From Sphingobacteriales bacterium (GTDB lineage: Bacteria; Bacteroidota; Bacteroidia; Chitinophagales; Chitinophagaceae): a DNA stretch of 64,000 nt. A program made the translations under genes and the position numbers. This document shows, in pieces, positions 23,627-25,519 of the stretch. The stretch spans positions 451,722 to 515,721 of the forward strand of contig RXJG01000002.1 in the NCBI GenBank assembly GCA_003963365.1, in the 5' to 3' direction. The notes beneath the pieces are model-generated. The model did not search any database. It was not told where the DNA came from and worked only from the letters and a program-made list of their open reading frames with translations. The number at the start of each line of letters is the position of its first letter. The stretch's first letter is position 1.

Positions 23627-24007
23627 ATGGCTCGTATTGCCGGTGTTGATTTACCAAAAAATAAAAGAGGAGAAATAGGCCTTACCTATATCTATGGTAT
23701 TGGCAATTCTACTGCCCGCTACATTTTAGAAAAAGCTGGCATCAGTTACGATAAAAAAGTACATGAGTGGAACGATGATGAGCTGAATGCCATCCGTAAT
23801 ATCATTACTAACGAGCTGAAAGTAGAAGGTCAGTTACGCAGTGAAGTGCAAATGAGCATCAAGCGTTTATTGGATATCGCTTGTTACCGTGGTCTCCGTC
23901 ACCGTAAAGGTTTACCTGTTCGTGGTCAGCGTACTAAAACAAACAGCCGCACACGTAAGGGTAAGCGTAAGACAGTAGCCGGTAAGAAAAAAGTAGCTAA
24001 GAAATAA
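23627..24007 (+). CDS. rpsM: 30S ribosomal protein S13
   Basis: [34 protein letters not shown]...[34 protein letters not shown]. Confidence 0.98.
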
Positions 24008-24200: not shown

Positions 24201-24617
24201 ATGGCAAAAGCACAACAACAGCAGCAACAATTAAGCGCTAAAGCGGCTGCTAAAAAAAGAGTGGTAAAAGTGGATGCTCAGGGTGATGCACACATTACTG
24301 CCAGTTTCAACAACTTAATTATCAGTATTACTAACAAACAAGGCCAGGTTATCAGCTGGAGCAGTGCCGGTAAAATGGGTTTTAAGGGTTCTAAAAAGAA
24401 TACTCCTTATGCTGCCCAGATGGCCGCTGCAGATGCTGGTAAAGTAGCATTTGATGCAGGTGTAAAAAGAGTAGAGGTTTATGTAAAAGGCCCCGGTTCA
24501 GGAAGGGAAGGTGCTATCCGTGCATTATCTCAATCTGGTATTGAAGTAACTATGATTAAAGACGTAACTCCGTTACCACATAACGGTTGCCGTCCTCCCA
24601 AGAAAAGAAGAGTTTAA
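24201..24617 (+). CDS. rpsK: 30S ribosomal protein S11
   Basis: [43 protein letters not shown]...[18 protein letters not shown]. Confidence 0.98.
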
Positions 24618-24626
24618 GATATTATG

Positions 24627-24686
24627 CTGAATGCTAAATGTTGGATGTTAAATGAAGGCATTCATCATTTAAAATTCAACATTCAA
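24627..24686 (+). repeat. 4+4 inverted heptad array, RATG-type (rpsK-rpsD spacer)
   Basis: ctgaatg|ctaaatg|ttggatg|ttaaatg - aagg - cattcat|catttaa|aattcaa|cattcaa. Confidence 0.85.
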
Positions 24687-24711
24687 AATAACATACTGAT
24701 AAGCACATAGC

Positions 24712-24794
24712 TTTCATTTTAAAAAAGGGTGACTAATTGATTTTTTAACGCTTTTACTGATTAGCTCACCGGTTTCTAAAAAGCGTAAATGAAA
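24712..24794 (+). promoter_or_regulatory. predicted pseudoknot r-protein leader upstream of rpsD
   Basis: Closing helix 24712-24719/24787-24794 (TTTCATTT/AAATGAAA); stem 1 24728-24737/24760-24770 (GGTGACTAAT/ATTAGcTCACC); stem 2 24748-24755/24779-24786 (ACGCTTTT/AAAAGCGT) interleaved with stem 1. Confidence 0.65.
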
Positions 24795-24801
24795 AAAAAC
24801 T

Positions 24802-25407
24802 ATGGCACGTTACACTGGTCCCAAGACCAAGATTTCCCGCATTTTTGGTGAGCCCATTTTGGGCAATGGCAAATGGTTAACTAAAAACAGTTTACCTCCA
24901 GGTCAGCATGGTGCAACCCGCAAGCGTAAAACTTTAGGTGAATACGCTTTACAGTTGCGTGAAAAGCAAAAAGCTAAATACACGTATGGTGTATTAGAAA
25001 AGCAATTCCGTAAAACATTTGAAGAAGCAGCCCGTATTACTGGTGTTACCGGTGAAAACCTCATTAAATTATTAGAGGCCCGCCTGGACAACACCGTTTA
25101 CCGCTTAGGTATTGCTCCTTCACGTCCTGCTGCACGCCAATTGGTAAGTCACAAACACATCACAGTAAATGGTGAAGTGGTTAACGTTCCTTCTTTTTCA
25201 TTAAAGGCCGGCGATGTAGTTGGCATTAAAGATAAAGACAAGACCAACACTGCTATCATCAGCGCTTTTAAAGGAAAGAATCCAAAGTTCAGCTGGTTAG
25301 ACTGGAACGAAGGTGAAATGAAAGGTACTTTCATTGCTTATCCTGAAAGAGAAAGTGTTCCTGAGAATATCAAGGAGCAACTGATTGTGGAATTGTACAG
25401 CAAGTAA
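24802..25407 (+). CDS. rpsD: 30S ribosomal protein S4
   Basis: MARYTGPKTKISRIFGEPILGNGKWLTKNSLPPGQHG...RLGIAPSRPAARQLVSHKHITVNG. Confidence 0.98.
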   Translation: MARYTGPKTKISRIFGEPILGNGKWLTKNSLPPGQHGATRKRKTLGEYALQLREKQKAKYTYGVLEKQFRKTFEEAARITGVTGENLIKLLEARLDNTVYRLGIAPSRPAARQLVSHKHITVNGEVVNVPSFSLKAGDVVGIKDKDKTNTAIISAFKGKNPKFSWLDWNEGEMKGTFIAYPERESVPENIKEQLIVELYSK

Positions 25408-25410
25408 TAG

Positions 25411-25438
25411 CTGCGAGCAACGAGTTGTGAGTGGCGAG
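25411..25438 (+). repeat. heptad array NNNYGRG x4 (rpsD-rpoA spacer)
   Basis: ctgcgag|caacgag|ttgtgag|tggcgag. Confidence 0.85.
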
Positions 25439-25452
25439 TTCTTTTTCTTAGT

Positions 25453-25519
25453 GGGCAGTATTCAGTGGGCAGTTGGCAATTCAAAATATGAGAGGCAAAC
25501 TGTGAACTGGCAACTGCAG
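25453..25519 (+). repeat. CAGT-type inverted heptad array (rpsD-rpoA spacer)
   Basis: gggcagt|attcagt|gggcagt|tggcaat ... actgtga|actggca|actgcag. Confidence 0.75.

Follow-up and report, generated by a model that had tools for sequence, protein, structure and literature searches.

The window analyzed here, a stretch of 64,000 nucleotides, is part of a Chitinophagaceae genome, as indicated by the closest relatives of its ribosomal protein S4 and by other kin. The operon it contains has the gene order rpsM, rpsK, rpsD, rpoA, and rplQ. Between rpsK and rpsD lies an AT-rich spacer of 184 nt, which holds all three of the complementarities reported in a preliminary description of this DNA; each of them was found letter for letter at its coordinates. 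In the family as a whole, rpsK precedes rpsD in all 139 loci with sufficient upstream DNA, and rpsD is found inside the operon throughout, with no relocation seen. The genes and the parts of the element, in window coordinates, are as follows.

23627-24007: rpsM
24201-24617, plus strand: rpsK, ribosomal protein S11, the gene upstream of rpsD
24697-24716, plus strand: 5' hairpin H0, TGA-t-AAGC ACATA GCTTTCA; subclade only, strand permutation 0/5000
24712-24719, plus strand: closing helix P0, 5' strand TTTCATTT; limited to a subclade, without covariation support
24728-24738, plus strand: stem 1 (S1), 5' strand GGTGACTAATT; covariation in 79 leaders
24739-24747, plus strand: loop 1, U-rich, GATTTTTTA; conserved alignment columns
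24748-24755, plus strand: stem 2 (S2), 5' strand ACGCTTTT; strand permutation and double-sided changes
24756-24758, plus strand: loop 2, ACT, the A invariant; from the alignment
24759-24770, plus strand: stem 1, 3' strand GATTAGCTCACC, with C24765 bulged; covariation
24771-24778, plus strand: loop 3, GGTTTCTA; from the alignment
24779-24786, plus strand: stem 2, 3' strand AAAAGCGT, ending 15 nt 5' of the rpsD ATG
24787-24794, plus strand: closing helix P0, 3' strand AAATGAAA, 8 bp with the 5' strand
24802-25407, plus strand: rpsD, ribosomal protein S4, the presumed regulated gene, with its ATG at 24802

Elsewhere in the window, a TPP riboswitch (Rfam RF00059, 64.3 bits) lies at 904-1004 on the minus strand. 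Word-like imperfect repeats (ATTCAACATTCAAAAT; GAGTTGTGAGTGGCGAGTT; CAGTGGGCAGTTGGCAATTC) occur in the window spacers 24621-24695 and 25410-25500, and the same repeats are frequent in the spacers of relatives, directly 5' of the pseudoknot. One record titled Phycisphaerales (L111, JASGCP010000001.1) encodes an S4 that is 73% identical to the Bacteroidota S4 of the window, which probably reflects contamination or wrong labelling of a metagenome bin.

The conserved element is an H-type pseudoknot of approximately 60 to 75 nt. Stem 2 has 8 bp with its 5' strand inside the stem 1 loop, as had been described and as can be read directly from the sequence. Stem 1 had been given as 10 bp with one bulge; the bulge, C24765, stands and is limited to a subclade, while the helix proved to be 11 bp long. 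Covariation was assessed in an alignment of 79 nonredundant Chitinophagaceae leaders. The preliminary description had named a lack of covariation in stems 1 and 2 as evidence against its reading, and both stems do covary: among the 79 leaders there are 74 distinct helices for stem 1 and 22 for stem 2, and for each stem 0 of 10,000 permutations of the 3' strand reached the observed pairing. The forms of stem 2 include GATTTTT/AAAAATC, ACGCTTTT/AAAAGCGT, AAGCTTTTT/AAAAAGCTT, GGTCTTT/AAAGACC, GACCTTT/AAAGGTC, GGCCTTT/AAAGGCC, and CAGTTTTTT/AAAAAACTG. By column counts, 93.2% of cells were paired, against 81.5% in shuffles and 38 to 59% when slid, and 147 double-sided changes were observed against 45 in the column-count comparison; these counts understate stem 2, because MAFFT misregisters part of it. 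On an rpsD tree, individual stem 1 pairs went through as many as 32 changes of paired state, and the covariation signal is therefore not one inherited event. The least variable alignment columns include the U-A pairs of stem 2 next to the junction and the loop 1 U tract, whose UUUU core hardly varies within the family. On this comparative evidence, stems 1 and 2 can be taken as real beyond reasonable doubt.

Nested folding of the region, computed for the single window sequence, was unremarkable (MFE of -19.3, z score of -0.95), and the pseudoknot would therefore escape a nested folding program. When the 90 nt 5' of each rpsD were searched for H-type pseudoknots, the window leader scored -28.0; its shuffles averaged -16.6, and 0 of 40 did as well. 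Most family members resembled the window in this search, and most outgroup sequences did not. As a control, a finder with the family topology was run on the 90 nt upstream of rpsK at the same loci, a score of at least 33 being considered strong. Such scores were obtained for 118 of 137 rpsD leaders compared to 6 of 135 rpsK leaders and, outside the family, for 1 of 48 rpsD leaders. In the absence of a ligand, nested folds are thermodynamic competitors of the pseudoknot.

The distance from stem 2 to the ATG has a median of 13 nt over the family (standard deviation of 6), and stem 1 follows the rpsK stop at a median of 71 nt (standard deviation of 35, range of 4 to 157). The tight distance to the ATG and the loose distance to the rpsK stop tie the element to the initiation of rpsD rather than to the 3' end of rpsK; the 3' strand of stem 2 falls within the rpsD translation initiation region. 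A covariance model was built from sequence and stem 1, stem 2 being left out of it as it crosses stem 1. In the whole genome, the model found one convincing site, at 60.1 bits; the next match, at 26.2 bits, was judged on inspection to be due to chance. The position at the rpsD start and the genome search without a second copy support the earlier placement of the element at rpsD and not at rpsM.

The covariance model matched 148 of 200 family genomes (E value up to 0.1), and in the named loci that were checked every sense-strand match lay at the rpsD start, approximately 70 nt upstream of the gene. In the order and phylum samples, all matches fell within the family with a single exception (G480), an ordinary hairpin that was dismissed as a chance match. 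The family members missed by the model belong mostly to a divergent subclade of Flavipsychrobacter- and Taibaiella-like organisms. Leaders of this subclade have the same topology in another sequence, for example GCTGTTCCG/CGGAGCAGC with ACGATTTTT/AAAAATCGT, and their stem 2 often ends 0 to 3 nt 5' of the ATG. Their complementarities are backed by strand permutation, the automatic labels of the two stems being sometimes swapped. No pseudoknot was seen in the genera g16 (L011, L153, and L154) and g48 (L155 and L156) or in a few single genomes. Both genera lie inside the family and appear to have lost it, and because it is absent from them, the pseudoknot is dispensable in some lineages. The shortest rpsK-rpsD spacers of the family, of 40 to 51 nt, agree with the short spacers of g16. 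In g48, repeats such as AATAACTACATAACAGAATAACTA fill the spacer upstream of rpsD.

The preliminary description had called the pseudoknot enclosed, and this part of it found no support. The closing helix P0 is confined to a single subclade, in which 32 sequences were examined, and permutation of its strands gave no signal (2,648 of 5,000 permutations as good). Since P0 is so uniform, covariation speaks neither for nor against it. We rejected P0 as a conserved enclosing helix belonging to the core, given the missing permutation signal and its absence outside one subclade; it is possibly a chance complementarity. Members of that subclade also carry a 5' hairpin, H0, which the preliminary description had missed and for which covariation was found (0 of 5,000 permutations as good, with a narrow margin over the best one). 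In most subclade members the 3' strand of H0 is shared with P0, and in the window it overlaps the P0 5' strand; in a few members the two are separate. Because of this shared strand, H0 and P0 are mutually exclusive in most members and compete with one another. Ahead of P0, a linear 5' motif of approximately ACATATTGA..GCCA is conserved in most subclade members (window 24690-24719). Its GCCA complements the AUGGC with which rpsD begins and is enriched, occurring in 24 of 32 leaders against 6.3 expected, a comparison uncorrected for kinship, but the energies of the GCCA/AUGGC duplexes were not significant as a group (median rank of 22.5 of 100).

A search against the ribosomal protein leader families of Rfam, proposed in the preliminary description as a check, yielded no such family at the window: with Rfam 15, both gathering and relaxed thresholds returned only chance matches at the site, and none of 20 further loci, family loci included, gave a match. 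The negative result is meaningful because the same search recognized RF03141 upstream of rpsD in Flavobacteria loci; the RF03141 covariance model had no match at gathering score in the window or in family loci. The model of the E. coli alpha-operon S4 target (Alpha_RBS, RF00140) did not match at the window at the gathering or the relaxed threshold. Local alignment of nine leaders with the genome's own 16S rRNA revealed no mimicry that was consistent beyond shuffles, and an apparent 16S similarity at L110 was gone once the search was limited to the 16S region. Lack of 16S similarity is no argument against S4, since the leaders of E. coli, Bacteroidia, and Flavobacteria reportedly lack it too. 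Literature searches, with subscription journals mostly outside their coverage, found no description of the Chitinophagaceae element. In Pedobacter, Sphingobacterium, and Solitalea, another hairpin-like sequence, TTTAAGATAAGATTC...GATACTTCAAA or a variant, occurs approximately 60 nt upstream of rpsD (L121, L122, L127, L128, L132, and L134). It is possibly yet another S4 leader, and no Rfam match was obtained for L121, L122, L132, and L134.

Several S4 leaders are available for comparison. Those upstream of rpsD in Bacteroidia and Flavobacteria have been described as hairpins (Eckert and Weinberg 2020, PMC7247131) that show no meaningful resemblance to one another, nor to rRNA or further S4 leaders; Chitinophaga is unmentioned in the main text of that paper (PMC7247131). 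The S4-Flavobacteria leader (RF03141) shares with the present element the phylum, the site upstream of rpsD in the alpha operon (rpsD-rpoA-rplQ), and the presumed ligand S4, but it is a 33-nt hairpin in contrast to an H-type pseudoknot of approximately 60 to 75 nt. The Bacteroidia leader (PMC7247131) likewise agrees in phylum, gene position, and presumed ligand and, going by its published description as a hairpin, would differ from the pseudoknot of the window. In Bacillus subtilis, the target of S4 is the rpsD leader, but there the gene stands apart from the alpha operon and the regulatory region is not a pseudoknot (PMC10931766); the Firmicutes rpsD leader has a GUAA mimicking rRNA (PMC7247131), whereas no rRNA mimicry and no Rfam match were found for the Chitinophagaceae leaders. 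In E. coli, S4 regulates the alpha operon by an entrapment mechanism through a pseudoknot at the translation start of rpsM (PMC10931766). The E. coli target and the Chitinophagaceae element are both pseudoknots located where translation of an alpha-operon gene begins, with S4 as the regulator in the former, but the E. coli target is at rpsM, the first gene, and the element described here is at rpsD. Pairing in the E. coli target continues past the start codon.

The pseudoknot is conserved with covariation, was found at one site in the genome and in this family, and lies at the rpsD start. The preliminary description had read it as a regulatory leader, and that reading is supported by where the element lies, by its conservation across the family, and by its single occurrence in the genome. 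We consider it likely that the element is a cis-acting ribosomal protein leader of Chitinophagaceae, formed by the alpha-operon mRNA between rpsK and rpsD and responsive to S4. An AT-rich spacer with unremarkable nested folding is also where one might misread a chance complementarity, a transcription terminator, or a repeat as a pseudoknot, but for stems 1 and 2 this is excluded by the covariation, the controls, the single genomic copy, and the positional conservation, and no T-run follows stem 1; we regard this explanation as extremely improbable. It is also very unlikely that the element is a constitutive, ligand-free structure that sets the translation level of rpsD or the stability of the mRNA, or that couples rpsD translation to that of rpsK. 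Position in a spacer is by itself no proof of regulation, and two genera manage without the element, but the 4- to 157-nt range between the rpsK stop and stem 1 is contrary to coupling by terminating ribosomes, and unpaired loop positions are conserved too, beyond the needs of a plain roadblock.

The remaining alternative is a real cis-regulatory pseudoknot with a ligand other than S4, such as S11, S13, L17, the alpha subunit, or a nonribosomal RNA-binding protein. The structure is demonstrated, while S4 as its ligand is what we infer from the position and from the S4 leaders of neighboring lineages; moreover, rpsK always lies 5' of the element and rpoA and rplQ 3' of it. Because rpsD never left the operon, relocation does not separate linkage to S4 from linkage to the operon. 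Against another ligand, S4 is the primary rRNA-binding protein among the operon products, in two other phyla it is the experimentally known regulator of rpsD or of this operon (PMC10931766, PMC7247131), and the element keeps its position relative to the rpsD start rather than to rpsK. We therefore judge a non-S4 ligand unlikely, and the best reading is an uncatalogued, lineage-specific S4 leader with a structure apparently unlike those of the S4 leaders described so far.

As an S4 leader, the element would most likely be a feedback switch by which S4 lowers its own production. S4 (uS4) in excess over free 16S rRNA would bind and stabilize the pseudoknot, and the S4-bound pseudoknot would block initiation on rpsD, either by occlusion of the 30S footprint or by trapping of the 30S subunit as in E. 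coli (PMC10931766). Because Bacteroidota ribosomes do not use Shine-Dalgarno pairing (PMC10931766), what would block translation is structure covering the initiation region rather than Shine-Dalgarno masking. The downstream genes rpoA and rplQ would perhaps be affected too. In the subclade of the window, the covarying 5' hairpin precedes this pseudoknot.

The geometry suggests a more specific model, which we offer tentatively. U.A-U triples are known in other H-type pseudoknots, and a loop 1 lying parallel to the A strand of stem 2, as expected here, would have the geometry of such triples. It is conceivable that the leader represents a new class of S4-leader pseudoknot, in which loop 1 forms U.A-U triples in the A-U groove of stem 2 and S4 recognizes the triplex-stabilized fold, and that in one subclade the choice between H0 and P0 adds a second switching step. 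If so, a triplex pseudoknot class would have evolved convergently with the S4 pseudoknot of E. coli, at another gene of the operon.

The likely S4 leader of Chitinophagaceae gives a large family without an Rfam model a leader that lies at rpsD, as in sister lineages, and, like the E. coli target, takes the form of a pseudoknot. An Rfam entry could be seeded with the present alignment and covariance model. Unrelated structures have evolved into S4 leaders on several occasions, and the Chitinophagaceae leader is apparently an independent solution. It would offer a comparative system for how one protein recognizes unrelated RNAs, and for how initiation may be blocked in a phylum without Shine-Dalgarno pairing.
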